Both the position numbers and the translations under genes were made by a program. A stretch of DNA of 64,000 nucleotides. Origin: Sphaerisporangium krabiense. Lineage in GTDB: Bacteria > Actinomycetota > Actinomycetes > Streptosporangiales > Streptosporangiaceae. Within the stretch, counting starts at the first letter, position 1. Each line of letters starts with the position of its first letter. The notes under the pieces were generated by a model. The model ran no database searches. It worked only from the letters and a program-made list of their open reading frames with translations, and was not told where the DNA came from. The stretch covers positions 2,170,001-2,234,000 of the forward strand of contig NZ_JACHBR010000001.1 in the NCBI RefSeq assembly GCF_014200435.1. The letters are read 5' to 3'. Below, piece after piece: positions 5,958-54,300 of the stretch.

Positions 5958-7271
5958 ATGCCCAGGTATCGCCATTACCGGCGTCTCTCGGTGATCGCCG
6001 CCACCCTCGTCGTCGGAGCCGGGATGACCGCCGCGTGCGGCGGCGGCGACGGCGGCGGCGGCGACGGCGCCTCGACCGGCACGGTGAAGCTCAGCTTCTG
6101 GACCCACACCCACCCGCCGATGATCGACCTCAACAAGAAGCTCATCGCCGAGTACGAGAAGAGCCACCCGAACGTCAAGATCGAGTACCAGACGATCCCG
6201 AACACCGAGTTCGGCACCAAGATGCTCACCTCGCTCAGCACGGGAGCGGGGCCGGACATCATCAACATGGACGACAACGCGCTGCGCGGCGAGTACATCC
6301 CCAAGAACCTGCTCGCGCCGGTCGACCCGGCCGGGTTCGGCAAGTCGTCGGCCGCCGAGATCGAGGGCGGCTACGTGCCCGGCACGCTGGACGGGGCCAA
6401 GGACGCCAAGGGCACGCTGTACGGGGTGCCGAGCGAGTTCAACGGCACGGCGTTCGCGATCAACAAGAAGCACTTCAAGGACGCCGGGCTCGACCCGTCC
6501 AAGCCCCCGAAGACCTGGCGTGAGGTCGTCGAGTACGGCAAGGCGCTCAACAAGGCCGGGCACAAGCAGGCGTTCAACTTCCTCTACCTGCACTCCGGCT
6601 GGTACAGCCAGTGGTTCCAGACCCTGGCCAACCAGACCGGCGGGTCGATCCTGTCGGAGGACGGCAAGACCCCCGCGCTGCAATCGCCCGGCACCAAGGC
6701 GGCGATGAACCTGTGGGTCGAGCTGGCCCGCACCTCCGGCATCGCCGACCCCAAGACCTCCTCGCGGGACGCGACGGCGCCGTACCAGGACCTGGCGAGC
6801 GGCACGCAATCCATGGCGATCGTCTACCCGTGGGCGATGGAGCAGATCCAGCAGTCCAACCCCGACACCTACGCCGACCTGGCCGTGGTGCCGCTCCCCC
6901 AGGCCGACCCGGCCAAGCCGGTCAGCCGCGTGTACGGCTACTTCTGGGCGGTGAACAACGCGAGCAAGCAGAAGACCGAGGCGTGGAAGTTCATCTCCTA
7001 CCTGGCGAGCCAGCACGACCGGTGGCTGAGCGACGTGAGCTTCGTCCAGCCGGTGACCGACTGGCAGTCCAGTGAGCCGGCCAAGAAGACGCCGTTCATC
7101 GACGTGATCGCGGCCGCCTACGCGCAGGGCCGCTACGACCAGGTCGGCCCGCACTGGAACGAGGTCCAGGACGTCATCCGCAAGGCGGTGGACGAGGCCG
7201 TGTTCGACGGCAGGCCGGTGGACGACGTGCTCAAGGAGGCCGACGAGTCGGTCCGGCGGAGCATCGGCTGA
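5958..7271 (+). CDS. Sugar ABC transporter substrate-binding lipoprotein
   Basis: The product is 437 residues with an arginine-rich n-region, a hydrophobic stretch and a lipobox-like GMTAAC, with the lipidated Cys at residue 27, followed by a Gly/Asp linker. The mature part shows the family 1 extracellular solute-binding pattern: KLSFWTHTHPPMIDLNKKLI at the start, TGAGPDIINMDD, and GTLYGVPSEFNGTAFAINKKHF. GGAGGG precedes the ATG. It should present a sugar to the two permeases encoded directly downstream; the associated kinase and NanE suggest an N-acetylated amino sugar. Confidence 0.9.
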   Translation: MPRYRHYRRLSVIAATLVVGAGMTAACGGGDGGGGDGASTGTVKLSFWTHTHPPMIDLNKKLIAEYEKSHPNVKIEYQTIPNTEFGTKMLTSLSTGAGPDIINMDDNALRGEYIPKNLLAPVDPAGFGKSSAAEIEGGYVPGTLDGAKDAKGTLYGVPSEFNGTAFAINKKHFKDAGLDPSKPPKTWREVVEYGKALNKAGHKQAFNFLYLHSGWYSQWFQTLANQTGGSILSEDGKTPALQSPGTKAAMNLWVELARTSGIADPKTSSRDATAPYQDLASGTQSMAIVYPWAMEQIQQSNPDTYADLAVVPLPQADPAKPVSRVYGYFWAVNNASKQKTEAWKFISYLASQHDRWLSDVSFVQPVTDWQSSEPAKKTPFIDVIAAAYAQGRYDQVGPHWNEVQDVIRKAVDEAVFDGRPVDDVLKEADESVRRSIG

Positions 7272-7272
7272 C

Positions 7273-8214
7273 ATGCCCACGATGACGCGGACCCCTTCGG
7301 GAACTTCGGGCACGGACGGCCGGGCCGCCCGCCGCCGGTTCCCGAAGGGCCCGGTCCGGGGCCGGGGGCGCCGGGTGAGCCGCAGGGACCTGGTCGGGGC
7401 GACGCTCTCCTTCCCCGCGCTGGCGCTCTTCGCGCTCTTCGCGATCTATCCGGGCCTGCGGGTGTTCTACCTCAGCCTGTTCGACTACAGCCTGACCAGC
7501 CCCGCGACGTTCGTCGGGCTGGAGAACTTCCGTTTCCTGGCCACGGACCCCCGCTTCCACGAGGCCCTGCTGAACTCGTTGTTCTACACGGTGGGGACCT
7601 ACCTTCCCGCGCTGGTCCTGGCGCTCATGCTGGCCATGGCGCTGCACCGGCGCATGGCGGGCGGCGGCTGGATCCGCCTGCTGTACTTCCTGCCGGTGGC
7701 GACGAGCTGGGTGGCCATCTCAGTGGTCTGGCGTCTGGTCCTGCACCCGCACGGGCTGCTGAACCAGACGCTCGGCCTGGACGTGACGTGGCTGACCAGC
7801 TCGGCGGCGGCCCCGTGGGCGCTGGTGATCATGAGCGTCTGGAAGGAGACCGGCTTCTTCCTCATCCTGTTCCTCGCCGGGCTCTCCCGCCTGCCCCGCG
7901 AGGTCTTCGAGGCCGCCCAGGTGGACGGCGCGGGGGCCTGGCGGCGGTTCTGGCACATCACCTTCCCGCTGCTCAAGCCCGTCACGGCGATCTGCTCCGT
8001 CATGGCGATCATCCGCGGGCTCCAGGCGTTCAGCCCCCAGGTCGTGCTGACCGACGGCGGGTTCGGCACCGAGGTGGTCAACCTGTTCGTCTACAAGACC
8101 GCGTTCGAGAACGCCCGCATGGGCCGGGCCAGTGCGGTGGCGGTGTTCATGTTCTTCGTCCTGATCTGCGTGACCCTGGCCCAGCTCCGCCTCTTCCGCA
8201 GGGAGGACGCGTGA
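7273..8214 (+). CDS. Sugar ABC transporter permease (MalF-type)
   Basis: This 313-residue integral membrane protein has about six transmembrane segments after a basic N-terminus (RRRFPKGPVRGRGRRVSRRD). The inner-membrane ATPase contact loop is visible as FEAAQVDGAGAWRRFWHITF, which is the EAA motif of binding-protein-dependent permeases. It starts two bases after the binding-protein stop and overlaps the next permease by four bases. It pairs with the 8211-9044 product to form the transport channel. Confidence 0.9.
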   Translation: MPTMTRTPSGTSGTDGRAARRRFPKGPVRGRGRRVSRRDLVGATLSFPALALFALFAIYPGLRVFYLSLFDYSLTSPATFVGLENFRFLATDPRFHEALLNSLFYTVGTYLPALVLALMLAMALHRRMAGGGWIRLLYFLPVATSWVAISVVWRLVLHPHGLLNQTLGLDVTWLTSSAAAPWALVIMSVWKETGFFLILFLAGLSRLPREVFEAAQVDGAGAWRRFWHITFPLLKPVTAICSVMAIIRGLQAFSPQVVLTDGGFGTEVVNLFVYKTAFENARMGRASAVAVFMFFVLICVTLAQLRLFRREDA

Positions 8215-9044
8215 CCGCCCTCGCCCGGACCGGCCGGGTGCTGCGCTGGGCGGCGGTGACCGCGGGCGGCCTCGCGTTCGCGGCGGTCCTGGCCTACGCG
8301 GCGGTGTCGGCGGTCAAGCCGGCGGGCGAGGTGCTCGCCGTGCCGTTGAGCTGGCTGCCGAGCAGCGTCGAGTGGCACAACATCGTGCTGCCCTTCACCG
8401 AGACGCCGTTCGCCCGCTACTTCGGCAACAGCGTGTTCGTCGGCGTCACGGTGACGCTGCTGAACGTCGTCACCTGCACGCTCGCCGGGTACAGCTTCTC
8501 GAAGTTCAGCTACCCCGGCCGCAACGTCGCGTTCGTCGTCGTGCTCGCCACGCTGATGGTGCCGCTCGAGGTCATCTACGTGCCCCTGTACGCGCTGATC
8601 TACGACCTCGGATGGGTCAACAGCTTCGCCGGGCTGATCGTCCCCGCGGGCACCAGCGCGTTCGGCATCTTCCTGATGCGGCAGAGCATCGACACCATCC
8701 CCGACGAACTGCTGGAGGCGGCACGGATCGACGGCGCGGGGGTGCTGCGCAGCCTCGCGCGGATCGTCGTCCCGCTCGTGCGCGGCCCCATGGCGGCCCT
8801 GGCGCTGTTCATCTTCATGATGAACTGGGACAGCCACCTGTGGCCGCTGCTGGTCGCGGGCGACGACGACCACCGCACGCTGCCTGTCGGCCTCGCCGCC
8901 ATGCAGGCCAACAACCTGGGCGCGAGCGGCGTGCCGATGATGATGGCCGCGGCGGTGCTGGCCATGCTGCCCACGGTGCTGCTGTTCCTGTCCCTGCAGC
9001 GGCGGTTCGTCGAGGGCGTGGCGATGAGCGCGGGCCTTCGATGA
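8211..9044 (+). CDS. Sugar ABC transporter permease (MalG-type)
   Basis: The 277-residue product starts at a GTG overlapping the stop of the first permease. It has about six transmembrane helices and the EAA loop LEAARIDGAGVLRSLARIV. It ends in the QRRFVEGVAMSAGLR pattern, with 'FVEG..' followed by a small basic tail that is typical of MalG-type permeases. No ATP-binding subunit follows, so the transporter must borrow an ATPase encoded elsewhere. In actinomycetes MsiK commonly does this. Confidence 0.9.
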   Translation: MTALARTGRVLRWAAVTAGGLAFAAVLAYAAVSAVKPAGEVLAVPLSWLPSSVEWHNIVLPFTETPFARYFGNSVFVGVTVTLLNVVTCTLAGYSFSKFSYPGRNVAFVVVLATLMVPLEVIYVPLYALIYDLGWVNSFAGLIVPAGTSAFGIFLMRQSIDTIPDELLEAARIDGAGVLRSLARIVVPLVRGPMAALALFIFMMNWDSHLWPLLVAGDDDHRTLPVGLAAMQANNLGASGVPMMMAAAVLAMLPTVLLFLSLQRRFVEGVAMSAGLR

Positions 9045-10000
9045 CCGGCGGCTCCTCGCCCGGGGGGCCGGGCGTGCTGGTGGCCGTGGACAGCGGCCAG
9101 TCCAGCCTGCGGCTGGCCGTCCTCGGCTCGGGCGCGGTCCACGAGGCGCCCGGCTTCAGCTACTCGGCCGGCGATCCGGTCGCCGCGCTGACGCGGACCA
9201 TCGGCGCGGCGTGGGAGGCCGCGGGCTCCCCCGGCCCCGTGGCCCGCGCCGTGCTCGGCCTGACCGGCCTGCCGTCCCGCCCCGAGGTGCGCGCCCGCCT
9301 CGCCGCGGCGATCGCGGCGCTGCTGGACGCCCGTGAGATCGTGCTGGCCGCCGACAACGTCACCGCGCACGCCGGGGGGCTGCCCGGCGGGCACGGCGTG
9401 GTGATGACGATCGGCACCGGGGTCGGCTGCCTCGCGGTCGACGCGGCCACGCGCACCGCGCGCCGCGTCGACGGGTGGGGCCACCTGTTCGGCGACGACG
9501 GCAGCGCCTTCGCCGTCGGCCGCGCGGGGATCGCCGCGGTGCTGCGCGCGGTGGACGGCCGCGGCCCGCGCACCGCGCTCGCCGGACCCGCCGGGCGGCG
9601 CTACGGCTCGGTCCACGAGATGACGTTCGCCCTCTACACCTCGCGCAACACCGTCGACGACACCGCCAGGTTCGCCCCCGAAGTGGTCGCGGCGGCCGAG
9701 GCGGGGGACGAGGTGGCCGACGGCATCGTCCGCGCGGCCGGGCACGCGCTGGCCCACACGGCCACGGCGGCGGTCGCCACGATCTCCGGCGACGACCCGG
9801 TCCCGCTGGCGCGCACGGGGCGGCTCGTCGAAGGGGACAGCCTGCTCGTCCGCACCTTCCTGACCGGCCTCGCCGCCGCCTGCCCGCGCGCGCGGCCCGT
9901 GCCCGCCGAGGGCACGTCCCTGGACGGCGCGCGCAGGCTCGCCACCGCGCCGGACCCCGGCGCCCAGGGTCTGCCCGTTCATATCTACCGAGGTTCGTGA
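9041..10000 (+). CDS. BadF/BadG/BcrA/BcrD-type ATPase, N-acetyl amino sugar kinase-like
   Basis: This 319-residue protein starts at an ATGA overlap with the permease gene. It is an ASKHA-fold kinase: the phosphate-1 motif VAVDSGQSSLRLAV is near residue 13, a second glycine-rich motif is MTIGTGVGCLAV, and GWGHLFGDDGSAFAVG is characteristic of N-acetylglucosamine kinase-like members of the BadF family. The expected reaction is ATP-dependent 6-phosphorylation of the imported amino sugar, feeding NanE encoded next. The exact epimer cannot be settled from sequence. Confidence 0.82.
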   Translation: MTGGSSPGGPGVLVAVDSGQSSLRLAVLGSGAVHEAPGFSYSAGDPVAALTRTIGAAWEAAGSPGPVARAVLGLTGLPSRPEVRARLAAAIAALLDAREIVLAADNVTAHAGGLPGGHGVVMTIGTGVGCLAVDAATRTARRVDGWGHLFGDDGSAFAVGRAGIAAVLRAVDGRGPRTALAGPAGRRYGSVHEMTFALYTSRNTVDDTARFAPEVVAAAEAGDEVADGIVRAAGHALAHTATAAVATISGDDPVPLARTGRLVEGDSLLVRTFLTGLAAACPRARPVPAEGTSLDGARRLATAPDPGAQGLPVHIYRGS

Positions 10001-10003
10001 ATC

Positions 10004-10669
10004 ATGCTGCCATTCCCATCGCGTTCGCTGGTCGTCTCCTGCCAGGCGACGGCGTCCAGTCCGCTGCGGGACCCCGACCCCATGGCCAGGATGGCCCGCG
10101 CCGCCGAGGAGGGCGGAGCCGTCGCGATCCGCGCCAACGGCCCCGCCGACGTGGCGGCGATCGCGCGCGCGGTCGCGATCCCGATCATCGGCATCAACAA
10201 GACCGGCGATCCGCGTGGCGTCTACATCACGCCCACCGCCGACGCCGCGGGCGAGGTCGTCGCCGCCGGGGCCAGGCTGGTGGCCGTCGACGGCACGACC
10301 CGGCCCCGGCCGGACGGCGCCACGCTCGCCGAGCAGATCGCGCGGATCCACGACGAGTACGGCGTGCCGGTCATGGCGGACGTGGACCACCACGAGGCGG
10401 GGCTCGCCGCCCGCGAGGCGGGCGCGGACATCGTCGCGACCACGCTGTCCGGCTACACGGGCCCTGGGCCCGTGCCCGAGGGCCCCGACCTGGAACTGGT
10501 CGCCTCGCTGGTCGCCGCGCTGGACTGCCCCGTGATCGCGGAGGGCCGGTACTGGACGCCCGAGCAGGCGCGCGAGGCCGTCGAGGCGGGCGCCTACGCG
10601 GTCGTCGTCGGCACGGCGATCACCAACCCCGGCGCGCTCACCGGCCGCTTCCGGCGGGCCCTTTCATGA
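10004..10669 (+). CDS. nanE: N-acetylmannosamine-6-phosphate 2-epimerase
   Basis: The 221-residue TIM-barrel protein carries the NanE signatures LVVSCQA near the start, IGINKTGDP, ADVDHHEAGLAAREAGADIV, and the C-terminal AEGRYWTPEQAREAVEAGAYAVVVGTAIT. The enzyme interconverts ManNAc-6-P and GlcNAc-6-P. It begins three bases after the kinase stop and overlaps the next gene. With the kinase it defines a ManNAc/GlcNAc route, although deacetylase and deaminase genes (nagA, nagB) are not in this operon and must be elsewhere. Confidence 0.9.
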   Translation: MLPFPSRSLVVSCQATASSPLRDPDPMARMARAAEEGGAVAIRANGPADVAAIARAVAIPIIGINKTGDPRGVYITPTADAAGEVVAAGARLVAVDGTTRPRPDGATLAEQIARIHDEYGVPVMADVDHHEAGLAAREAGADIVATTLSGYTGPGPVPEGPDLELVASLVAALDCPVIAEGRYWTPEQAREAVEAGAYAVVVGTAITNPGALTGRFRRALS

Positions 10670-11955
10670 GGGCGGGCCACGGACGGAGCCCGCTGCCGGT
10701 CCCGCCGGGCACGCCGCTCGGCGGGTACGCGGCCAGGACCGGGGTCTCCACCGGGGTGCTCGACGAGCTGGAGGTCGCCGCGGTCACCGTCGAGACCGGC
10801 GGCACGCGGCTGGTCTGGGTGGTCGCGGACCTGCCGTTCGTCAACGTCGACCTGGCCGACCGGGTGCGGCGGGCGGTGCGCGACGCGATCCCCGGGGTGC
10901 GGCCGGAGGACGTGTGGGTCTCGGCGACCCACACCCACTCCGGGCCGGACAGCTCCTGCCCCGCCGAGCCCTCGCGCACGCCGGACCGGTGGCTGGAGGA
11001 CGTCCCGGCCGCCGCGGTCGCCGCCGCGCGCGCCGCGGTCGCCACCGAGCGCGAGTCCCTCCTGAGCGTGCGGCGCGGACGGCTGGCCGGGGTGGGCGGG
11101 CAGCGCTCCGGCGCGCGGCCGCGGCGCACGGTGCCGATCGACGTCCTGTCCTTCGAGGCCCCGGACGGCGGCACGCGCGGCCTGATCGTCGTGGCGCCCG
11201 TGCACCCGACCGTACTGGGCGCGGACAACCTGCTGGTCAGCGCGGACCTCACCGGCGCCGCACGCCGGGCGCTCGCCGCCCACCCGGCGCTCGCCCGCGA
11301 CGGCGCGCGCCCCTGGGCGGTGGTCGCGACCGGCGCGGCGGGCGACGTGAGCACCCGGCCGCACCGCCACGCGCAGACGCCGCGGGAGTGCGACCGTCTG
11401 GGCGCGCTGGTCGCGGACCGCGTCGTCCGGGCGCTGCGCGAGCCCGCCCGCGCGGTCGTCCCGATCGGCGCGCCCGCCGAGGCGCGCCTGGAGCACGTCC
11501 CCGTCCCGCCGAGGCCGCGCGACGCGCCCGCGCTCGCCGGCCGGCTGGAGGAGGAGCTGCGGCGGGTGGAACGGCGCGGCGACCCGGTCGCGACGCGTAC
11601 CGCCTGGACGGCGCTCCAGGCGGCGCGGCTCGCCGCCGACGGCCCCCCGCCCCCGGAGCGGCCGTCCTGCGCGGTGTCGGTCATCAGGCTCGGCACGGTC
11701 GCGCTGGTGGCCCTGGGCGGCGAGCCCTACCTGGACCTGGCGGCACGGCTGGAGGAGTCCGTCGGCGGGACCACCGTCCTCGTCGGCTACACCAACGGCT
11801 ATTTGGGCTACCTGCCCGTGCGCGCCGCCTACCGCCGGCCGGTCTACGAGGTTCTTCGCTCGCCGGTCGCCGAGGGCGGCGCCGAGCGGGTGATCGCCCG
11901 CGCCGCCGCCCTCGTCCCGTCCCCCACAGCACCATCATCGGAGGAACACCCGTGA
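10666..11955 (+). CDS. Neutral/alkaline non-lysosomal ceramidase-like metallohydrolase
   Basis: The product is 429 residues from the ATG overlapping the nanE stop. VSATHTHSGPDSS near residue 85 gives the His-x-His zinc site typical of the neutral ceramidase N-terminal domain, and ATGAAGDVSTRPH further on is another conserved block. The C-terminal YTNGYLGYLPVRAAYRRPVYEV also matches the family. There is no signal peptide, unlike secreted ceramidases, so it is cytoplasmic and probably acts on an amide of an imported amino sugar rather than on ceramide. Close relatives recur in operons of this type; the substrate is an inference. Confidence 0.75.
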   Translation: MRAGHGRSPLPVPPGTPLGGYAARTGVSTGVLDELEVAAVTVETGGTRLVWVVADLPFVNVDLADRVRRAVRDAIPGVRPEDVWVSATHTHSGPDSSCPAEPSRTPDRWLEDVPAAAVAAARAAVATERESLLSVRRGRLAGVGGQRSGARPRRTVPIDVLSFEAPDGGTRGLIVVAPVHPTVLGADNLLVSADLTGAARRALAAHPALARDGARPWAVVATGAAGDVSTRPHRHAQTPRECDRLGALVADRVVRALREPARAVVPIGAPAEARLEHVPVPPRPRDAPALAGRLEEELRRVERRGDPVATRTAWTALQAARLAADGPPPPERPSCAVSVIRLGTVALVALGGEPYLDLAARLEESVGGTTVLVGYTNGYLGYLPVRAAYRRPVYEVLRSPVAEGGAERVIARAAALVPSPTAPSSEEHP

Positions 11956-12716
11956 CCAATCCGACCCTCGACCGCCCGCCCGCCGTGCAGGTGCTGCAGG
12001 ACGCGATGGACCGCGTCCTCACCACCCAGCGCCCGGCGATCGCGCAGGCGGCGCGCCTGTGCGCCGACGCGCTCGCCGGTTCCGGCATCATCCAGGCGTT
12101 CGGCACCGGGCACTCCCGCTCGTTCACCATGGAGATCGCCGGCCGCGCGGGCGGGCTGGTGCCCGCGAACCAGATCGCGATCAAGGATCTCGTCATGCAC
12201 GGCGGCGCCGCCCCCGCCGAGATCCTCGATCCCACCAGCGAGCGGGACCCCTCGCTCGCGCGGCGCATCTGGTCGCTGCACGACATCCGCGCGGACGACG
12301 TCTTCCTGATCGCCTCCAACTCCGGCATCAACGGCACGATCGTCGAGATGGCCAAGCTCGCGCGGGAGAACGGCAACGCCGTCGTCGCGGTCACCTCCGT
12401 GGCGCACAGCAGGAACACGCCCTCCCGGCACCCGTCGGGGCGGCGGCTGCTCGACGAGGCGGACGTCGTGATCGACAACTGCGGCGTGCCCGGCGACGCG
12501 GCCTACACGCTCGCCAACGGCGCCAAGATCGTCCCGACCTCGACCATGACGAGCGTGCTCATCGCCCAGCTCATCACCGCCGAGATCTGCGCGGACCTGC
12601 TCGCGCGCGGCATCGCCCCGCCGGTCTACCTGTCCGCCAACATCCCGGCCGGGGACGACCACAACGAGCGGGTCCTGGCCAAGTACGCCGCCCGGATCCG
12701 CAAGAGCGAGCCCTGA
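11952..12716 (+). CDS. SIS-domain sugar-phosphate protein
   Basis: The 254-residue protein starts with a GTG that overlaps the previous stop and is preceded by GGAGGAACACCC. It is a single SIS (sugar isomerase) domain, with GSGIIQAFGTGHSRSFTMEI and DVFLIASNSGINGTIVEMA as phosphosugar-binding segments, and AKIVPTSTMTSVLIAQ near the C-terminus. It is shorter than a GlmS or a MurQ etherase and resembles the uncharacterised UPF0309-type SIS proteins. As the last gene of the operon it should bind or transform the phosphorylated amino sugar. Confidence 0.82.
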   Translation: MTNPTLDRPPAVQVLQDAMDRVLTTQRPAIAQAARLCADALAGSGIIQAFGTGHSRSFTMEIAGRAGGLVPANQIAIKDLVMHGGAAPAEILDPTSERDPSLARRIWSLHDIRADDVFLIASNSGINGTIVEMAKLARENGNAVVAVTSVAHSRNTPSRHPSGRRLLDEADVVIDNCGVPGDAAYTLANGAKIVPTSTMTSVLIAQLITAEICADLLARGIAPPVYLSANIPAGDDHNERVLAKYAARIRKSEP

Positions 12717-13122
12717 GGTGTCGCAACCGCCGTCGCGCGCGGCGATCCGTGAAACGCACCGCGAATATGGATTTATCATACGGCCGTAATTCCGGAATCC
12801 CTCCCGTGCCGTGAACGAGCACGAGCCCCCCAGGTCACGGTGCCGCGCGCCCGCGCGGCACCCGGCCGGGGAGCAGGTGACCGAATTCGCGATTCGGCCG
12901 GATCCCCGGTCCGTATAGCGCCGCGTGGGCGGGACGGGCGGCGCCACCGGCCGCTCCGCTGAATACGAATCGCATTCGGCATAACATTCGCCACACCCCC
13001 GCTCCCCTTTCCGCGTTACCGATGAATGGCGACAAATCAGGATCTGTAACTAGTAACTGTTGATTTCCTGAAACATCCCGTTAACGTGGATCTGCACCAC
13101 CAGGTCGCGAAAGGAGTCAGGA
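12717..13122. other. Intergenic region between the amino-sugar operon and the lanthipeptide locus
   Basis: No convincing gene is visible in these 406 bases. The left half has a GC-rich hairpin (12839-12862) and an inverted repeat CCGAAT/ATTCGG (12881-12897). The right half (about 12940-13085) is AT-richer and holds a direct repeat GTAACTA/GTAACTG (13046-13059), likely within the promoter of the precursor genes. Confidence 0.5.
12839..12862 (+). terminator. Strong GC hairpin, probable end of the amino-sugar operon transcript
   Basis: GGTGCCGCGCG (12839-12849) and CGCGCGGCACC (12852-12862) are perfectly complementary 11-mers. No T-run follows, so it may act as a Rho-assisted or transcript-stabilising hairpin rather than a classical terminator. 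Confidence 0.45.
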
Positions 13123-13314
13123 ATGCCGGTCCCCCTGGAACGCTCCGAGCAGATCATCGCCGCGTGGCGCAGCGGCGCGGCGGACGCCGACGGCTGGGAG
13201 AACCCCGCCGGTCCGCCGCTAGCCCGGTACGCCGAGTCGGAGATCACAGCGGCCTTCGCCGAGACGCGCAGACCCACCGCGTGCACCGGCGCCAACACCA
13301 TCCCGTGCTGCTGA
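13123..13314 (+). CDS. Class II lanthipeptide precursor 1
   Basis: This 63-residue peptide has a mersacidin-like leader: SEQIIAAWRSG (residues 8-18) and WENPAGPPLARYAESE (25-40), compared from memory with the IIRSW...NPAGNPFSEL pattern of the mersacidin leader. The C-terminal end PTACTGANTIPCC has Thr at 52, 55 and 59 and Cys at 54, 62 and 63, enough for three thioether rings. No double-Gly or Gly-Ala cleavage site precedes the core; an RR pair is at 49-50. AAAGGAG precedes the ATG. It is followed 23 bases later by a paralogue and then LanM, which fixes its role as the substrate of that enzyme. Confidence 0.88.
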   Translation: MPVPLERSEQIIAAWRSGAADADGWENPAGPPLARYAESEITAAFAETRRPTACTGANTIPCC

Positions 13315-13337
13315 CCAAAAGCCAGAGGGAGCAACAG

Positions 13338-13529
13338 ATGCCAGTGACAACGGAACGCTCCGAAGAGATCATCGCCGCGTGGCGCAGCGGCGCTGCGGAC
13401 ATCGACGGCTGGGAGAACCCGGCCGGTCCGCTGCTGAGCCGGTACGCCGAGTCGGAGCTCACGACCGCCTTCATCGAGACGCGCAGGGCCAGCGCGTGCA
13501 CCGGCTCCTTCACCCACCAGTGCTGCTGA
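13338..13529 (+). CDS. Class II lanthipeptide precursor 2
   Basis: This 63-residue paralogue of the preceding peptide is identical at 48 of 63 positions by hand count, with no gaps. The leader is nearly unchanged (IIAAWRSGAADIDGWENPAG). The core ASACTGSFTHQCC keeps the hydroxyl residue at 52, Cys54, Thr55, Thr59, Cys62 and Cys63, while 57, 58, 60 and 61 differ, so ring-forming positions are conserved and loop residues vary. GAGGGAG precedes its ATG. LanM begins 19 bases downstream. It is either a two-component partner or a diversified second product. Confidence 0.88.
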   Translation: MPVTTERSEEIIAAWRSGAADIDGWENPAGPLLSRYAESELTTAFIETRRASACTGSFTHQCC

Positions 13530-13548
13530 CCGACGAAGGGTGAGAAGC

Positions 13549-16422
13549 ATGGCCGGGGACTTCGACCCGTCGCTCGACCACCTGACCGCCCCGGCGCTGC
13601 GCAGGCTGTCGGCCGTACTGGCTTCGGTCCCCGGCCTCACGGCGGCGGAGGCCCGTGTGATCCACCGGGGCGCGGCGGAGGCACTGGAGGAGACCGTCCG
13701 CCGCAAGGTGAACCGGGTCCTGCTGCTGGAGCTCAACGCGGCCAGGATCAGCGGCCGGCTGACGGGCGCGACCCCGGAGGACCGGTGGCGTGAGTGGAAG
13801 GCGACGGCCGCGACCCCGGAGTTCTGGCGCTCGCTGACCCCGCACTACCCGACGATGCGCTCCCGGCTCGCCGTGATCGTGGCCAACCGGTGCGCCGCGG
13901 CCGAGGAGCTGGCCCGCAGGTTCGCCGCCGACCGGGCCGACCTCGCCGCGCTGCCCGGCGCCCCGGGCGGCGACCTGACCCAGGTCCGGTTCGGCGCGGG
14001 CGACAGCCACCGCGGCGGGCGCGCGGTCGCCGTCCTGCACGGCTCCGACGGGCGGGTCGTCTACAAGCCGCGGTCCCTCGCCGTGGACCGCGAGCTGGCA
14101 CGCCTGATCGCCCGCCTGGCGCCCGCGCTGCCCCACGGCACGGTGATCCGCGTTCCCGAGGTGCTCAGCCGCCTGGAGTACGGCTGGGCGGAGCACATCG
14201 CGCACCGCTACTGCGCCGGCGACGCCGAGCTGCGCGCCTTCTACCGGGGCATCGGGCACTGGCTCGCGCTGATGCGCCTGGTCGGCGGCAGCGACCTGCA
14301 CGCGGAGAACCTGATCGCGGCCGGGCCCGCGCCGGTCGTCGTCGACTGCGAGACGCTGTTCACCCCGCACGCCGCCCTCAAGCCGTCCGGCCACGGCGCG
14401 GCGGTCGACCGCGCGTCCGAGCTGCTCATGGGGTCAGTGCTGCGCATCGGCCTGCTGCCCGGCCGTGGCGCCGCGCTCGGCTGGCGGGGCGTGGACGTCT
14501 CCGCCCTCGGCGCGCTGCCCGGCCAGCAGCCGCACGTGCGGGTGCCCGTCGTCGTCGACGCGGGCACGGACACGGCCAGGGTGGGCGTCCAGCGCGTGGA
14601 GATGGAGGCGGTGGGCAACCACCCGAGCCCCGACCCCGTTCTCGCCCGCTACTGGGACCTGGTGCTGGACGGGTTCGCCGAGCTGTCCCGCCACCTGGAC
14701 GCGCTGGACCGGCGCGGCGACCTCGGCGGGATGCTGGCCGGCTTCGCCGACCTGCCCGTCCGCGTGGTGCCGCGCGCCACCGAGGCGTACGCCGAGCTGG
14801 CCCGCATGCTGTGGCATCCCGGTTCGCTGCACGACGAGGCCGCCGCGTGCCGCGAGGCCGCGCGCCTGCTGACCGAGCACGCCGGCAACCAGCCGGGCGC
14901 GCCGCCGGACCCCAAGGTCATCGACGCCGAGGTGACCGAGTTGCTGAACGGCGACATCCCCTTCTTCGCCACGACCCCGGCCCGCGGCCGCATGGACGGC
15001 CCCGGCGGCACCGCCTTCGGAGAAGAACAGGACCTCATCGCGGACGCGCTGCGGCGCTGGCGCGAGCGCGAGTCGGCCCTGGACCGCGACGTGATCCGGG
15101 CCGCCCTCGTCAGCGCCTACCTCAACGAGGGCTGGCTGCCCCGGACCGCGCGGATGGCCGCCCCCCTGATCCGGCACGACGACCTGGACCCGCGCCGCCG
15201 CCGGCTGGCGGCCGGCATGGCGCGCCGCCTGCTGGACGCGGCGGTGCGCGGCGACGACGGCACGGTGACCTGGATCGCCCCGGTGCTGACCTCCTCCGGC
15301 TGGTCGGTGCAGTCGCTGACCGCCGACGTGTACGGCGGGGCGCACGGGGTCGCGATCACGCTGGCCGCCTACGCGGCCGAGACCGCGCGGGGCGAGGCCG
15401 ACGAGGTGCCGGGTCTCGACCGGCTGCTGGCCGACCTGCTCCACACGATCAGGCTGGCCGAGGATGACGACGCCGCCCTGCGCCGCTCGGCGACGCCCCG
15501 TCGGCCCGACCCGCCGGGAGGGTACGTCGGCATCGGCTCGTGGATCTGGAGCTGGCTTCTGCTCGGCCGGCTCGGCGCCGTGGCGGACCACGAGGCCCTG
15601 ACCCGGGCGTGCGCGCTGGCCGGGGAGCTGCCCGCGGCGGTGGCGGCGGACGAGGTCTACGACCTGCTCGGCGGGATGGCGGGCGCCGTGGTGCCGCTGC
15701 TGCGCCTGGCGGGGCGCGCCGGCGACGCGCGGTACGCGGCACAGGCCGGCGAGATCGGCGAGCGGCTCGTCACGCTGGCCGCCGACGACGGCCGGGGGGC
15801 GCGCTGGCCCAACGCCGACAACCGGACCGGGCTCGGCGGCATGGCGCACGGCTCCACCGGCATCGGCTGGGCGCTCGCCCGGCTGTCCGACGCCGGGGTG
15901 CCCGGGGCCGAACGGTTCGCCGCCCTGGCCGACCGGGCCTTCCTGTTCGAGGAGTCCCTGTACGACGCGGACGGGGACGGCTGGCTGGACCTGCGCGAGA
16001 CCGAGCCGCAGGTGACGGCGAGCGCGTGGTGCCACGGGGCCGGCGGCATCGGCGTCGTCGCGGCCGACCTACTGGCCCGCCGCGCCTCCCCCCGGTGGCA
16101 GGACGTGCTGCGCCGCGCGGCCGCGTCCTGCTGGAAACTCGGCATGGGCTGGAACCACACGCTGTGCCACGGCGATCTCGGCAACTGGGAGGTGCTGGAT
16201 CGGGCGGTCGAGGCCGGGCTCGGCCCCGGGGGACTGACCCGCGAGCACCTGTACGCGTACATGATCGGCACCGTCGAGGAGCACGGCCCGATCACCGGCC
16301 TGGCCCGCGACGCCTTCGCCCCCGGCCTGCTCCCGGGCATGTGCGGCATCCTCTACCAACTCCTCCGCGCCCGCCCCGGCACGCCCCTGCCCTCGGTGCT
16401 GCTCCCCGACCCGGGGGCGTGA
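13549..16422 (+). CDS. lanM: Class II lanthipeptide synthetase LanM
   Basis: The 957-residue enzyme starts at the ATG at 13549, eight bases after AAGGG; a GTG three codons upstream is less well placed. The N-terminal DUF4135 dehydratase half shows VVYKPRSLAVD (about residue 168) and SDLHAENLIAAGPAPVVVDCETLF (about 250-270). The C-terminal LanC-like cyclase half has the active-site His segment LGGMAHGSTGIGWAL and zinc ligands in WCHGAGGIG (about residue 827) and LCHGDLGN (about 872). It phosphorylates and eliminates Ser/Thr hydroxyls and then adds Cys thiols to form (methyl)lanthionine. All catalytic motifs are intact. The genes before and after are unrelated, so it works with the two precursors only. 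Confidence 0.95.
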   Translation: MAGDFDPSLDHLTAPALRRLSAVLASVPGLTAAEARVIHRGAAEALEETVRRKVNRVLLLELNAARISGRLTGATPEDRWREWKATAATPEFWRSLTPHYPTMRSRLAVIVANRCAAAEELARRFAADRADLAALPGAPGGDLTQVRFGAGDSHRGGRAVAVLHGSDGRVVYKPRSLAVDRELARLIARLAPALPHGTVIRVPEVLSRLEYGWAEHIAHRYCAGDAELRAFYRGIGHWLALMRLVGGSDLHAENLIAAGPAPVVVDCETLFTPHAALKPSGHGAAVDRASELLMGSVLRIGLLPGRGAALGWRGVDVSALGALPGQQPHVRVPVVVDAGTDTARVGVQRVEMEAVGNHPSPDPVLARYWDLVLDGFAELSRHLDALDRRGDLGGMLAGFADLPVRVVPRATEAYAELARMLWHPGSLHDEAAACREAARLLTEHAGNQPGAPPDPKVIDAEVTELLNGDIPFFATTPARGRMDGPGGTAFGEEQDLIADALRRWRERESALDRDVIRAALVSAYLNEGWLPRTARMAAPLIRHDDLDPRRRRLAAGMARRLLDAAVRGDDGTVTWIAPVLTSSGWSVQSLTADVYGGAHGVAITLAAYAAETARGEADEVPGLDRLLADLLHTIRLAEDDDAALRRSATPRRPDPPGGYVGIGSWIWSWLLLGRLGAVADHEALTRACALAGELPAAVAADEVYDLLGGMAGAVVPLLRLAGRAGDARYAAQAGEIGERLVTLAADDGRGARWPNADNRTGLGGMAHGSTGIGWALARLSDAGVPGAERFAALADRAFLFEESLYDADGDGWLDLRETEPQVTASAWCHGAGGIGVVAADLLARRASPRWQDVLRRAAASCWKLGMGWNHTLCHGDLGNWEVLDRAVEAGLGPGGLTREHLYAYMIGTVEEHGPITGLARDAFAPGLLPGMCGILYQLLRARPGTPLPSVLLPDPGA

Positions 16423-42908: not shown

Positions 42909-44729
42909 TCAGGCGGTCAGCGTGACGTCGTAGGCGCGGAGCCAGCGGTCCACCTCGATGAGCGGAAGCAGCAGATGGAGGTTGTCGGCCATGGTCATCA
43001 TCTCGGTGCGGCCCTCGGCGAGCGCGCGCACCTTGGGCACGTCCAGCAGGCCGTCCAGGGGAGAGGTCCTGTCGTCGAGGAGCGCGGTGAGCGCGCCGCG
43101 CACCGCCTCGGCGTGCGCCGGGGCGAAGGTCGCGGGGTAGCCGCTCTTGCGCCGCTCCAGCACCTCGCGCGGCAGCAGGTCGGCGACCGCGGAGCGCAGC
43201 AGGCTCTTCTCGCGCCCGTCGGCGACCTTCATCTTCCACGGGACGTTCCACACGTACTCCAGCAGTGTGTGGTCGCAGAACGGCACCCGCACCTCGAGGC
43301 CGAGCGCCATGCTCATGCGGTCCTTGCGGTCCAGCAGGTACAGCAGCGGCCCCTGCAGGCTGAGGTACAGCACCTCGCGCATCCGCGCCTGCAGCCCCGA
43401 CTCGCCGGGCAGGCGGGGCACCCGCGCCCGCAGGGTCTGGTACCTGTCGCGTTCGTCGTCGCCGGGGCGGACCCGGGCGCGCACGTCGGGGGCCAGGCAG
43501 TCGGTCAGGCGGGGCGCGTTGCCGAGCCAGGGGAAGGTGTCGCCGAAGACGGTCTCGCGGTCGAAGAACCACGGGTAGCCGCCGAACACCTCGTCCCCGG
43601 CCTCGCCGGACAGGGCGACCGTGGAATGCCGCCTGATCTCCTGGAACAGCAGGTACATGGAGGTGTCGAACTGGCCGAGCGTGGGCATGTCGCGCGCCGC
43701 CAGCGCGGCGGGGATCGCCTCGGGCAGCCTCCCGGGGTCGAGGGTGACGGTCGTGTGGTCGACGCGCAGGTGGCGGGCGGCGGCCAGGGCGAAGGGCGTG
43801 TCGCGTTCCGGGCGCAGCGGCGTGGCGCGGAAGTCGGCGTCGGCGCCCGTGAAGTCGACCGCGTAGGTGCGCAGGCCCCCCGGCTTGTGCGCGGCGGCGA
43901 ACGCCGCGAGGGCGCTGGAGTCCAGGCCGCCCGACAGCAGCGCGCACAGCGGCACGTCGGCGACGAGCTGGTGGACGACGACGTCCTCCAGGATCTCCCT
44001 GACGGTGCGCACGGTGGTGGGGTGGTCGTCGCGGTGCTCCCTGCTGACCAGCCGCCAGTACGGGGTCTCGTGCGCGCCCGAGCGGTCCACCCGCACCAGG
44101 TGGCCGGGCTGCACCTGGTTCATGCCGAGGAACGGCGTCTCCCACGGCATCGCCAGCCGCGGGTTGAACAGGATGGGCAGCTTCTCCTCGCTGGTCCGCG
44201 CGGTGAACAGGGGGTTGGCGAGGATGGCCTTGGGCTCGGAGCCGAACAGCAGCCCTCCGGGGTAGGCGTGGTAGTACAGCGGCTTCACGCCGAGCCTGTC
44301 CCGGACGAGCAGCAGTTCCTCGCGCCGGCCGTCCCAGATCGCGAACGCGTACATCCCCGCGAGCCGGTCCACGAACGCCGCGCCCCATTCCAGGTAGGCG
44401 CGCAGCACGACCTCGGTGTCGGAGCAGGTGCGGAAGCGGTGGCCGAGCCCGGCGAGCTGGGAGCGCAGCTCGCGGAAGTTGTACAGCTCGCCGCTATAGG
44501 TGAGCACGACGGGCGCGTCCTCCCCCTGCCCGCGCGCCTCCATGGGCTGGGCGCCGCCCTCGATGTCGACGACGGCGAGGCGGCGGTGCCCGAGCGCGGC
44601 GTGCGGGCCGATCCAGACGCCTTCCGCGTCCGGGCCGCGCCGGTGCAGCGAGCGGGTCATGGCCTCGACCGTGGGCCGCTCGAGGGCGAGGTCGCGGGAG
44701 AAGTCGATCCAGCCGGTGACGCCGCACAT
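42909..44729 (-). CDS. Asparagine synthase (glutamine-hydrolysing) family protein
   Basis: The product is 606 residues. The class II amidotransferase domain begins with catalytic Cys2 (MCGVTGWIDFSRD) and shows RRGPDAEGVW and YSGELYNFRELR. The synthetase domain has the ATP pyrophosphatase loop LLSGGLDSSALAAF and EAGDEVFGGYPWF. These features are those of true AsnB rather than of beta-lactam synthetases, which lack Cys2. In this cluster it could make asparagine for an adenylation domain or amidate the peptide or a carboxylate intermediate. It sits between the exporter and the FemAB-like gene in the same operon. Confidence 0.88.
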   Translation of the reverse strand: MCGVTGWIDFSRDLALERPTVEAMTRSLHRRGPDAEGVWIGPHAALGHRRLAVVDIEGGAQPMEARGQGEDAPVVLTYSGELYNFRELRSQLAGLGHRFRTCSDTEVVLRAYLEWGAAFVDRLAGMYAFAIWDGRREELLLVRDRLGVKPLYYHAYPGGLLFGSEPKAILANPLFTARTSEEKLPILFNPRLAMPWETPFLGMNQVQPGHLVRVDRSGAHETPYWRLVSREHRDDHPTTVRTVREILEDVVVHQLVADVPLCALLSGGLDSSALAAFAAAHKPGGLRTYAVDFTGADADFRATPLRPERDTPFALAAARHLRVDHTTVTLDPGRLPEAIPAALAARDMPTLGQFDTSMYLLFQEIRRHSTVALSGEAGDEVFGGYPWFFDRETVFGDTFPWLGNAPRLTDCLAPDVRARVRPGDDERDRYQTLRARVPRLPGESGLQARMREVLYLSLQGPLLYLLDRKDRMSMALGLEVRVPFCDHTLLEYVWNVPWKMKVADGREKSLLRSAVADLLPREVLERRKSGYPATFAPAHAEAVRGALTALLDDRTSPLDGLLDVPKVRALAEGRTEMMTMADNLHLLLPLIEVDRWLRAYDVTLTA

Positions 44730-44754
44730 CGTGATTTCCTTTGCCGCTCGGGGA

Positions 44755-45897
44755 TCAGTGGGAGACGCGCTCCGGGCGCAGGCCGGCGGAGTCGCCGCGG
44801 GGCAGTCCTGCCAGGAACGGGTCCAGGTGGACGAGGCGGTGGCGGTCCACGCCCGGGCTCTCCCAGCGCAGGTCGAGCCGGGGCGGGCGCTCGTCGTCGT
44901 GGAAGTAGACGGCTTCGAGGCCGCCGGCCTCGCGCAGCGCGAGCACCGGGTTGGCGACGAGGAGGTCCCGGACGCCGGCGCCGTCGCGCAGGACGCGCAC
45001 GAGCAGCCGCTTGTCGCGGAAGTGGTTGGGCGGCAGGCCGACCTCCGGGTGCATCTTGCGCTTGAACTGGAAGGTCCCCTTGCTCAGGAACGGCTCGCCG
45101 CCGGACAGGTCGACGCGGGCGAAGCCGTGCTCCGCGGCCCATTGAAGGATCAGGATGAACAGCGCCATGTAGGTGCCCGACCGGTAGGCGCGCGCGCCGC
45201 CGCCGTCCACCCCGGCCAGCCGGACGACCAGCGTGCGGCCCTCCACGCGGCAGAGCATGCCGGCCACCCGCGTGCCGGACTCGCGCAGGAAGAACAGCAC
45301 GCCGTGCCGCAGGATGCACGCGCGGGCGTCCTCCTTGGCCTCCGAGCGTGCGGACTCGCCGTGCCGGGCGTCCATGGTCGGCCGGTGCATGCCCTCGTAG
45401 AAGCGGTCGAAGTCGGCGTCGCCGGTCGTCGTCTCCAGGGTGCGGGCGTGGGAGACCAGCTCGCGGGCGTGCTGCTGCCGGGCCTTGCGCGAGAGCCTGC
45501 GCAGCACGTCGGCGGGGTCGGGGGCGAGCGGCACGGTCAGCGTGACCCGGAACGGCAGCAGGACGCCGTGCGGGGGAGGCACGGCCGGGGCCCGCCGCCG
45601 CGGGTAGGCGACGGCGAGCACGTCGGCCCCGGGGACGGCGCCGCCGAGCTCGGCCCAGGAGATACGGCGCCCGTGGCGCTCGGCGGGCAGGCCGCGCCGC
45701 TGTTCCAGGAACGGCAGCACGTGGGTGAGGGCCTGCGGCAGGCCCCCGCAGGCCAGCACCGGGCCGCCGCCCACCGGGACCGACCAGGTCACCCGCGGGC
45801 GGGACGCGGCGTCGGCCAGGGTCCTCGCCCGCAGCAGCCACGGGCCGCCGCCGTTGTGCCAGGCGTACCGCCAGGCGCGCGGGACCGGCGGCGTCAC
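44755..45897 (-). CDS. FemAB-like GNAT acyl/aminoacyltransferase
   Basis: The product is 380 residues from a GTG overlapping the panD stop. The central part [20 protein letters not shown] followed by [20 protein letters not shown] and the C-terminal [33 protein letters not shown] (in parts: [15 protein letters not shown]) match the GNAT fold of FemAB/BioF2-like proteins. Such enzymes transfer acetyl groups or amino acids from aminoacyl-tRNA; FemXAB homologues in other peptide pathways add a residue this way. It could extend the peptide independently of an NRPS module. No signal peptide is seen. Confidence 0.7.
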
Positions 45898-46324
45898 CCG
45901 GCCTCCATGGCGCCGACCGGCAGGTCCCCCGGCAGCAGGCCGTAGCCGCTCGGCACGTCCGACAGGGCGGCGTCCAGGCTGACGATCCGGTTGCCCGCGT
46001 CCACGAACACGACGCTCGGCTTCAGCGCGCGGGCCTCGGCGTCGGTCACCATCGCGTAGCCGATGACGATGACCAGGTCGCCCTTGTGGACGAGGCGGGC
46101 CGCGGCGCCGTTGACGCCGACGATCCCGCTGCCGCGCTCCCCCTCGATGACGTAGGTCTCCAGGCGGTTGCCGTTGTCGATGTCCACGATGTGGACGAGC
46201 TCGCCGGGCAGCAGGTCGGCGGCCTCCATGAGGTCGGCGTCGATGGTGAGCGACCCCACATAGTGCAGGTCGCACTGGGTGACGGTCGCCCGGTGGATCT
46301 TGGACTTGAGCATCGTGCGGTACA

Positions 46325-46325
<1 letters not shown>
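45894..46325 (-). CDS. panD: Aspartate 1-decarboxylase
   Basis: The 143-residue pyruvoyl enzyme makes beta-alanine from L-aspartate. All key residues are visible: Lys9, His11, Tyr22, the Gly24-Ser25 self-cleavage site (YVGSLTID), Arg54, Thr57 and Tyr58. Its ATG shares one base with the TGA of the NRPS gene upstream, and its stop overlaps the FemAB-like start, so it is locked inside the NRPS operon. Here it probably supplies beta-alanine as a building block, or supports phosphopantetheine supply, rather than serving only vitamin synthesis. Confidence 0.95.
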
Positions 46326-51303
<4,978 letters not shown>

Positions 51304-51307
<4 letters not shown>

Positions 51308-54300
51308 GCGGAGGTCCCGCCCAGCCGGGAGATCGGGGCGTCCGGCGTGCGCGCCATCCCGGTGACGATGGCCCGGTAGTCGGCGAGGATCCGGCGCGCG
51401 GTGTCCTGGTCGAACAGGTCCACGCAGTACTCGAGCGCGACCGCGATGCCGTCGTCGCGCTCCTTGACGAGCAGCGACAGGTCGAACCTGGCCACGCCCT
51501 GCTCGACGTCCACGGGCTCGACGGTCAGCCCGGGGAACTCGGGCTCGTGTTCAGGGGTGTTGGCCAGCGCGAACATGACCTGCACGAGCGGGGAGCGGCT
51601 CGGGTCGCGCGGCGGGCGCAGGGCCTTGACCAGCTCCGCGTACGGGATGTCCTGGTTGGCGTAGGCGCCGAGCGCGGTGTCGCGGACGCGGTCGAGCAGC
51701 TCGGTGGCCGTGGGGTCGCCGCTCAGGTCGGTCCTGAGGACCAGGGTGTTGACGAAGAAGCCGATCAGCGGCTCCACCTCGACCCGGTTGCGGTTGGCGG
51801 CCGGGGTGCCGACGACCACGTCGGTCTGGCCGCTGTAGCGGGCGAGCAGCACCGTGAAGGCGGCGAGCAGCACCATGAACATGGTGACCTCCTCGCGCCC
51901 GCACAGCTCGCGCAGGTCCCGCAGCACCTCGGCGGGGACGGCCAGCGACTCGTGCGTGCCCCGGTGGGACTGGACCGCGGGGCGCGGCCGGTCGGCCGGC
52001 AGCTCCAGCACCGGCGGCGCGCCGGCGAGCCGGTCGCGCCAGTAGTCCAGCAGGTCGTCGAGCACGCCGTCGCCCAGCCATTCGCGCTGCCACACGGCGA
52101 AGTCGCCGTACTGGATCGGCAGGCCGGGCAGGTCGGCGGCGCGCCCGGAGCGGCGGGCGGCGTAGAACTCGCCGAGCTCGCGCATGAACACCCCGAGGGA
52201 CCAGCCGTCGAACACGATGTGGTGGACCGTGACGACCAGCAGGTGGTCGGTGGCGGACAGCCGCAGCAGGCGCGCCCTGATCAACGGGCCCGTGGCCAGG
52301 TCGAGCGGCGCCCGCGTCTCCTCCTCCGCGCGCGCGACCACCTCGGGCCAGGACAGGCCGGCCACATCGGTGACCGACCACGGCACGGCGAGCTCGTCCT
52401 TCACGACCTGGCGCGGGCGCCCGCCCACCGAGGGGAACACCGTGCGCAGGGCCTCGTGCCGGGCCACGACGTCGCCGAGCGCGTCGCGCAGCGCGCCGGC
52501 GTCCAGGCGCCCGCCGAGCCGGAACGCCAGGGGCTCGTTGTAGGCGGGCGTGCCCGGGCGCAGCTTCTCGAAGAACCACAGCCGTTCCTGGGCGGGCGCC
52601 AGGGCCAAGGCCTCGTCGCGGGGGGCGCGCGGGATCGTGAAGAAGTCCTGATCATCGGCCGCGGCCTCGGCGGGACGGCTCTCCCGGATCATGGGCAGGA
52701 GCGCGGCGGCGGTCCTGGCGGTGAACAGGGCGCTCAGCGGCAGGTCCACGTCGAAGGCGGCGCAGACGCGGGCGACCAGCGCGACCGCGAGCAGCGACTG
52801 CCCGCCGAGCACGAAGAAGTCGTCCTCGGCGCCGACCTCGCCGGCGGGCAGGTCCAGGACGTCGGCGAACAGCTCGACCAGCCGTCGCTCCTCCTCGGAG
52901 CGGGGCGCGACGTAGGCGCCGCCGAGCTGTTCCGGGCGCACCCGTCCCGGCGCGGGCAGCGTCCTTCTGTCGATCTTGCCGTTGGCGGTCATCGGCAGCG
53001 CGTCCAGCTCGACGAGGATCGCCGGGACCATGTACTCGGGCAGCCGCTCGCCGAGCCACTGCCGCAGCTCGGCCGTCGGTGTCCCGGAGCCCGCGGTCGT
53101 GAAGTAGCCCACCAGCCTCTGCTCCCCTGGGCGGTCCTCGCGCAGCGTCACCGCGGCGGCGCCGATCTTCGGGTGCAGGAGCAGGACGTTCTCGATCTCG
53201 CCGGGCTCGATCCTGTGTCCGCGCAGCTTGACCTGGTGGTCGAGGCGCCCGAGGAACTCCAGCGAACCGTCGGGGCGGTGGCGGGCCAGGTCGCCGGTCC
53301 GGTACAGGCGCCCGCCGGGCTCGTCACCGAACGGGTCGGGGACGAAGCGTTCCGCGGTCAGCCCGGGGAGGTTCACGTACCCGCGCGCCACGCCGTGCCC
53401 GCCGATCAGCAGCTCGCCGGGCACGCCGAGCGGGACCGGCTCCAGGTCGGCGTCGACCACGTAGAGGCGGGTGTTGGCGATGGGCCCGCCGATCGGCACC
53501 GGCCCGGACACCGCCGAGGACTCCAGGACCGCCGTCAGCGACCACACCGTCGTCTCGGTCGGGCCGTACACGTTCCAGACCCGGCCGACGACGGGGAGCA
53601 GGCGGCCGAGCAGCTCCGGCGGCAGGGCCTCGCCGCCGCACAGCACGCGCAGGCCGGGGTCGCCCGGCCAGCCGCCGTCGAGCAGCATGCGCCACAGCGA
53701 CGGCGTGGCCTGCATGACCGTCGCGCCCGACCGCTCCAGCAGGCGGGTGAGCGCGCGGCCGTCGGTCACCGCGCTCCCGTCGGCGAGCACCACGCACGCG
53801 CCGCACGACAGCGGGCCGAGCAGTTCCAGGACCGCGATGTCGAAGGCCAGGGTGGTCACCGCCAGCAGACGGTCCTCCGCCGTCAGGCCGGCCTCTTCGG
53901 TGAGCGCGCGGATCAGGTTGACGACCGACCGGTGCTCGATCATCACGCCCTTCGGCGTCCCCGTCGAGCCGGAGGTGTAGATCACGTAGGCGAGGTCGCG
54001 CGGGGACACCGCGGGCCGGGGGGCCGGGGCGTCCGGCAGGTCCTCGCGGTCGACGGCGAAGGCACGGACCTCGGCGGGCAGCCGCCCGGCCAGGTGACCC
54101 TGGGTGAGCACGAGGCGCGCGCCCGCGTCGTCCAGCATGTACGCCAGCCGCGCGGACGGCTGGGCCGGGTCCAGGGGCAGGTAGGCCGCGCCCGCCTTGA
54201 GCACCGCGAGCAGCGCGGCGACCATCTCGGGCGAGCGCTCGAAGTACAGCCCGACGACGACGCCCGGCCCCGCCCCGAGCTCGGCCAGCCGGGCGGCCAG

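Follow-up and report, generated by a model that had tools for sequence, protein, structure and literature searches.

Among the systems closest to the one described here, a DUF6229 precursor of Dyella sp. 333MFSha, expressed with its class II lanthionine synthetase (LanM), acquires four dehydrations and three rings; the product, named rhodanocin, has the rings Thr6–Cys11, Cys8–Ser14 and Thr12–Cys23 by nuclear magnetic resonance (NMR), according to the accessible part of its description (PMC9576775). In Lysobacter, 21 of the 27 unique class II precursors belong to DUF6229, within a similarity network of six families (available portion of PMC11451712). Here we analyse a 64,000-nucleotide stretch of the Sphaerisporangium krabiense genome (contig NZ_JACHBR010000001.1, positions 2,170,001 to 2,234,000; hereafter the window), in which two adjoining genes, lanA1 and lanA2, encode the 63-residue precursors A1 (MPVPLERSEQIIAAWRSGAADADGWENPAGPPLARYAESEITAAFAETRRPTACTGANTIPCC) and A2 (MPVTTERSEEIIAAWRSGAADIDGWENPAGPLLSRYAESELTTAFIETRRASACTGSFTHQCC) and are followed by a gene for a LanM. 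A1 and A2 are well supported as class II lanthipeptide precursors of the established DUF6229 family, and with the LanM they very probably constitute a small operon of that family that makes modified cores.

The window system has in common with rhodanocin the pairing of a DUF6229 precursor with a LanM and a Thr-x-Cys motif, with three rings there and three possible in A1 and A2. However, the core of rhodanocin, a gammaproteobacterial peptide, is a 23-mer with Cys8, Cys11 and Cys23, whereas the proposed cores of the actinobacterial window are 13-mers ending in CC (PTACTGANTIPCC from P51 in A1, ASACTGSFTHQCC from A51 in A2); the comparison is one of descriptions and draws on the accessible part of PMC9576775. 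The rhodanocin ring pattern itself was considered and rejected for A1 and A2, because the spacing of Cys and hydroxyl residues in the 13-residue core disallows it, leaving only the Pfam family in common. The Lysobacter precursors, likewise compared by description, are of the same Pfam family and class, with several predicted topologies (PMC11451712, as far as available). LicM2, the lichenicidin synthetase (PDB entry 6st5), belongs to the same enzyme class as the window LanM and shares its dehydratase and zinc motifs; the systems differ in that NCBIfam precursor models of the mersacidin/lichenicidin type match neither A1 nor A2. The lacticin 481 group has its C-terminal CC in overlapping rings, as is possible in A1 and A2; unlike these, it has a longer core, a leader of another type with a double-Gly site and a dedicated peptidase transporter.

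No actinobacterial DUF6229 peptide appeared in the titles and opening abstract lines listed for open-access lanthipeptide papers on Planomonospora, Nonomuraea, Lysobacter and Streptosporangiaceae, a literature that omits most subscription journals, or in the accessible part of a review covering lanthipeptides of actinobacteria (PMC10676316). Five core strings of the family, together with PF19740 (the Pfam model of DUF6229), are unmatched in open-access papers, in keeping with an initial annotation of the locus, which knew of no characterized lantibiotic with a TACTGxxTxxCC core. Lanthipeptide clusters predicted by antiSMASH in Planobispora rosea include one with a counterpart in another tabulated genome (portion of PMC4514598 available), and these Streptosporangiaceae clusters could include relatives of the window locus. 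The actinobacterial DUF6229 branch thus seems to be undescribed in the open-access literature.

Precursors and synthetase

Both precursors score far above the PF19740 gathering cut-off of 25 bits (A1, 61.6 bits; A2, 67.5 bits), with alignments spanning positions 2–62 of the 62-position model. In a search of the whole genome they alone exceeded the cut-off; a single weak match below it (E 0.69) contains three stops, and under so permissive a threshold, matches were likewise obtained in 4 of 14 control genomes, none over the cut-off. No plasmid copies were found by tblastn. NCBIfam, searched with E up to 1, gave no family match for A1 and none for A2, by which membership of the mersacidin/lichenicidin type 2 lantibiotics was ruled out.

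The LanM matches TIGR03897 with 531.6 bits (cut-off 304, E 3.2e-159), comprises a DUF4135 dehydratase domain (PF13575) and a LanC-like cyclase domain (PF05147), and aligns with LicM2 over residues 43–956 (E 1.4e-59). The TIGR03897 and LicM2 searches were run on the translation of 13540–16419; the in-frame GTG at 13540 is a possible alternative start, upstream of the ATG at 13549, which is preferred because several relatives open with the same MAGDFDPSLD-like sequence. The dehydratase motifs VYKPRS, SDLHAEN and VDCETLF are all present, as are the zinc motifs of the cyclase, WCHG and LCHG. Genome-wide, the window LanM alone exceeds the profile cut-off, with three further matches below it. The locus combines the features by which class II lanthipeptides are recognized, namely a bifunctional LanM with catalytic and zinc motifs and an adjoining precursor with Ser/Thr and Cys at its C terminus. 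Genes, families, enzyme motifs and conservation are in this sense directly established. The initial annotation had read the genes as lanthipeptide precursors with a LanM, and the family and LanM matches uphold this; the kind of system is already known, from the DUF6229 peptide rhodanocin (PMC9576775, accessible part).

Core residues and proposed maturation

A1 and A2 are identical at 48 of 63 residues, as first annotated, and at 161 of 192 nucleotides including the stop codon. Their proposed cores agree at seven of 13 positions (A53, C54, T55, G56, T59, C62 and C63) and differ at positions 51 (P/A), 52 (T/S), 57, 58, 60 and 61. The annotated frame of a hydroxyl residue at 52 with C54, T55, T59, C62 and C63 is therefore fixed between the twins, and the four positions noted as variable (57, 58, 60 and 61) do vary.

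The A1 core contains exactly three hydroxyl residues (T52, T55 and T59) and three Cys (C54, C62 and C63), so that full cyclization would give three methyllanthionines within 12 residues; all three Thr would be used if every Cys is bridged without participation of the leader. The residue counts are consistent with three rings in A1, and six pairings are possible. Some rings may overlap, given the close spacing of T52, C54 and T55 and the need of each terminal Cys for a partner. The pairing that we favour, with rather less than even confidence, would join C54 forward to T59, and T52 and T55 to C62 and C63; it draws on the analogy of rhodanocin, in which the Cys of the T-x-C motif goes forward. 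The A2 core has one additional Ser (S57).

We infer the modification, rings, cleavage site, export and activity of the A1 and A2 products from the make-up of the locus. LanM would bind the conserved leader (approximately residues 1–50), phosphorylate the core Ser and Thr and eliminate the phosphate, and add the core Cys thiols onto the resulting dehydro residues. A host protease may then release the cores, perhaps cutting after R50, and the mature cores would be exported in trans. All 18 precursors of the LanM clade to which the window belongs have Arg or Lys at position 49 or 50, which would suit trypsin-like leader cleavage.

Distribution among relatives

DUF6229 was detected in 36 of the 341 genomes of the window's family (Streptosporangiaceae), in six of 394 genomes sampled at class level and in one of 396 sampled across the phylum, the last being the window's own genome, with two more below the cut-off; each tally includes the window's genome. 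An order-level search of 345 genomes returned the identical 36. The 38 loci studied comprise one per genome for these 36, an additional one in G510 and one from another family (G317), and a LanM adjoins the precursor in 37 of the 38. The G427 precursor (L057:4177-4392, minus strand) has five Cys and the C-terminal motif, on a 5.7-kb contig with no LanM.

The conserved Cys/hydroxyl frame of the initial annotation extends across the relatives. The pattern [S/T]-x-C-[S/T]-x(n)-CC ends 46 of the 47 precursors called by script, the miss being G317, and exactly six residues separate the second hydroxyl residue from CC in 36 of those 46; left uncalled were the G427 precursor, which bears the motif, and the Cys-free precursors of G511 and G512. 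A C-terminal [ST]xC[ST]x(3-8)CC is found in only two of the 790 stop-to-stop frames of at least 30 residues in the window, A1 and A2, and in 46 of 8,386 such frames in 37 relative loci, one of these 46 being read as a non-precursor. In all 39 unique post-leader stretches, Ser/Thr equal or outnumber Cys; the count is lenient, as it takes in leader-proximal positions and, in G575, a large part of the leader itself.

In G570 (L051:8031-9775), seven tandem DUF6229 precursors with differing four-Cys cores precede one LanM and an ABC exporter; this array is a natural combinatorial set.

In a midpoint-rooted LanM tree of 37 rows, the window and its relatives (12 loci) make up one side of a fully supported branch. 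Cores of this clade are without the upstream Cys (mostly CG[TS]xC) that the remaining motif-bearing loci carry; three Cys occur in the long cores and four in the short SSCTCSRFCC type (7 of 12 loci). All 20 unique cores that carry the upstream Cys have S57, versus 5 of the 13 without it (Fisher p 9e-5). A C50–S57 ring in the relatives that have the upstream Cys is suggested by this contrast, which amounts to about one evolutionary event, because the loci without that Cys form one LanM clade.

Twin architecture

Two-precursor loci were found in the window genome (G000), G582, G578, G463, G016 and G510a, six loci in three genera, all with a P51-type precursor first and an A51-type precursor adjoining LanM. 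The remaining six of the 12 clade loci show one precursor, A51-type in four and P51-type in two. Within genomes, the twin leaders are 80–94% identical and the cores 54–64%. Across the G000, G463 and G510a lineages, by contrast, A1 leaders are 60–75% and A1 cores 69–85% identical; the A2 cores show this contrast weakly (62–64% between lineages, in two comparisons, versus 54–55% within those genomes). Six column permutation tests of the leader–core contrast across the three genera gave p values of 0.005–0.029, from overlapping comparisons of three pairs only that are not independent. Among near relatives the contrast is unclear: A2 leaders of G000 and G582 are 92% identical, more than the two leaders inside G000 (82%), and A1 leaders of G463 and G578 are 90% identical, between the within-genome values of 94% and 86%.

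G582 keeps both precursors and a LanM 93% identical to that of the window. Its A1 matches at 12 of 13 core and 42 of 49 leader residues, and its A2 at 10 of 13 and 45 of 49, a mixed pattern of rates; of the loop positions (57, 58, 60 and 61), only 60 has changed in A1 and only 61 in A2, and the three changes in the A2 core include two Ser/Thr swaps. The window A1 core is also identical at 11 of 13 residues to that of G463, of another genus. Diversified loops, as proposed initially, are seen between A1 and A2, but most loop positions are preserved among orthologues (G582 and G463), and the single loop change per core against G582 and the Ser/Thr swaps in A2 argue that they are not freely diversifying. 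A1 and A2 look like two maintained products. The simplest reading of these comparisons is that they are old paralogues, whose leaders may have been homogenized or co-adapted to one LanM while the cores were kept distinct. Codon differences between A1 and A2 (leader, 8 synonymous and 9 non-synonymous; core, 0 and 6; Fisher p 0.058) were not relied on.

Two such products might also be the partners of a two-peptide lantibiotic, acting in concert, which would explain why their genes lie side by side in fixed order. The six paired loci of three genera, with the same order and distinct cores, would fit, as would leaders that appear homogenized within genomes while A1 cores stay alike across genera in the non-independent tests above. 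Half of the same-clade loci (6 of 12), however, show one precursor only, and the window cores share one ring frame, unlike the dissimilar LanII-2D/roseocin pair (PMC9576775, in the part available); we regard a two-peptide system as unlikely, though by no means negligible.

Exporter and regulator

Of 37 loci, 18 have a related ABC exporter immediately after LanM, but only one of these (G510a) is among the 12 loci of the window clade; for a divergent response regulator the counts are 14 of 37 and none of the 12. Both genes were detected through their similarity to proteins from two loci, so that unrelated ones would be missed, and the exporter cannot be judged in G511, where the contig ends inside LanM. 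The window operon has most simply lost an adjoining exporter and regulator, a direction that depends on the root of the tree. A LanT with a C39 peptidase was considered and rejected: the downstream transporters of four relatives, of the 18 known, have an ABC domain and no C39 domain (Pfam, E up to 0.001). Leader removal in the window operon would rely on something else.

The same exporter and regulator counts could mean that the window locus is a remnant, in which peptides, modified or unmodified, are made and neither exported nor matured. All three genes are open, however, and the LanM motifs intact, the exporter search was confined to the locus rather than extended to the rest of the genome, and G582 retains both precursors with its closely similar LanM. 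We consider decay of this kind quite improbable.

Cysteine-free side branch

Two relatives, G512 and G511, encode precursors of 173 and 180 residues that have a DUF6229 leader, no Cys and 19 and 23 NTR repeats, respectively. The G512 LanM keeps VYKPRP, SDLHAEN and VDCETLF and reads WAYG and LAHG in place of the WCHG and [LI]CHG found elsewhere; in G511, WAYG is visible before the contig end. The zinc-motif Cys of both motifs is kept in all 35 other LanMs, whose precursors contain Cys. As G511 and G512 are sisters in the LanM tree, the joint loss of core Cys and zinc residues counts as one event; it nevertheless ties the core Cys to the cyclase zinc site in the DUF6229 family. The pair is likely, from these residues, to be a dehydration-only peptide system. 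Cys-free precursors occur in LanM and LanKC clusters elsewhere, and core peptides without Cys are among the cyanotins (available part of PMC7268733).

This co-variation bears on whether the Cys of A1 and A2 form thioethers at all. They could instead engage in disulfides or metal binding while LanM acts elsewhere, and the C-terminal CC and small size would fit that as well. The loss of core Cys in G512 together with zinc-site residues, the adjacency of LanM to all but one of the 38 precursor loci, the conservation of hydroxyl residues next to the Cys and rhodanocin as a precedent (PMC9576775, accessible part) make this highly improbable, and favour LanM-installed rings.

Evidence against a modified-core operon

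Several observations weigh against the proposal that the operon makes cyclized, exported cores. The residue before the upstream Cys is basic in only 18 of 28 precursors from loci with that Cys. T59, annotated as invariant and indeed shared by A1 and A2, is present in 21 of the 28 unique cores of the commonest length and missing from seven, so that the Cys/hydroxyl frame is not rigid in all relatives; Ser/Thr fall below Cys in 7 of 39 unique stretches when the last 14 residues are counted; and G427 is the sole miss of LanM among the 38 loci. Near the window LanM, a similarity search gave no exporter relative, and no protease was recognized by eye, the neighbours not having been run against family libraries. 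The analogy with rhodanocin crosses phyla to a different core, and mass or NMR data on any actinobacterial DUF6229 member were not found in the literature searched.

Features and surroundings

The gap between lanA2 and lanM is 19 nucleotides (Table 1). The intergenic region upstream of lanA1 aligns most closely with its G582 counterpart immediately before A1, and it probably holds the promoter; a promoter consensus scan gave no site in the region, its sole consensus site falling within A2. Just 5′ of the lanthipeptide genes, window positions 5958–12716 hold, by eye, sugar ABC transporter and SIS-domain protein genes, relatives of two of which are also near the DUF6229 locus of G575 (L055). Large multi-domain open reading frames at 42909–58906 resemble by eye a nonribosomal peptide synthetase cluster.

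Table 1 Features of the window locus and of the Cys-free relatives
Feature	Position	Strand	Description	Evidence
LanA1	13123..13314	+	Class II lanthipeptide precursor, DUF6229, 63 residues	PF19740, E 6.8e-17
LanA2	13338..13529	+	Paralogue of LanA1, 63 residues	PF19740, E 9.4e-19
LanM	13549..16422	+	Class II lanthionine synthetase, 957 residues	TIGR03897 and LicM2 matches
Shine-Dalgarno-like sequence of lanA1	13110..13116	+	AAAGGAG	Sequence
Shine-Dalgarno-like sequence of lanA2	13325..13331	+	GAGGGAG	Sequence
Intergenic region 5′ of lanA1	12717..13122	+		Alignable with G582 counterpart over most of its length
G512 precursor	L064:9305-9826	-	DUF6229 leader	
G512 LanM	L064:6214-9255	-	Zinc-site-altered LanM	
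G511 precursor	L072:7136-7678	+	DUF6229 leader	
G511 LanM	L072:7728-10224	+	Contig ends within LanM	

Implications

The window operon is well supported as a class II lanthipeptide operon of a known precursor family, in which it is a new variant from actinobacteria whose twin cores are very short. A bolder proposal, which we put forward as speculative and improbable as a whole, is that the Streptosporangiaceae DUF6229 LanMs form a natural series, with a common leader and enzyme frame serving very different chemistries, the window twins being a maintained two-product system with an overlapping-ring knot in 12 residues. The series would run through upstream-Cys single peptides, often with an exporter and two-component system, the exporter-less twins with cores kept distinct and leaders homogenized, the seven-precursor array of G570 and the dehydration-only branch of G511 and G512, which lacks Cys, has approximately 20 NTR repeats and pairs them with a cyclase devoid of its zinc site. 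We know of no lanthipeptide with such a knot.

The locus belongs to an actinobacterial branch, apparently uncharacterized, of a precursor family in which we found one member solved by NMR, and the proposed 13-residue cores should be simple to produce and to map. How one LanM sets ring patterns on unlike cores can be tested directly with the twins and their relatives. In the sister branch lacking Cys, nature provides a LanM that has lost the cyclase zinc site, for comparison with those that retain it.

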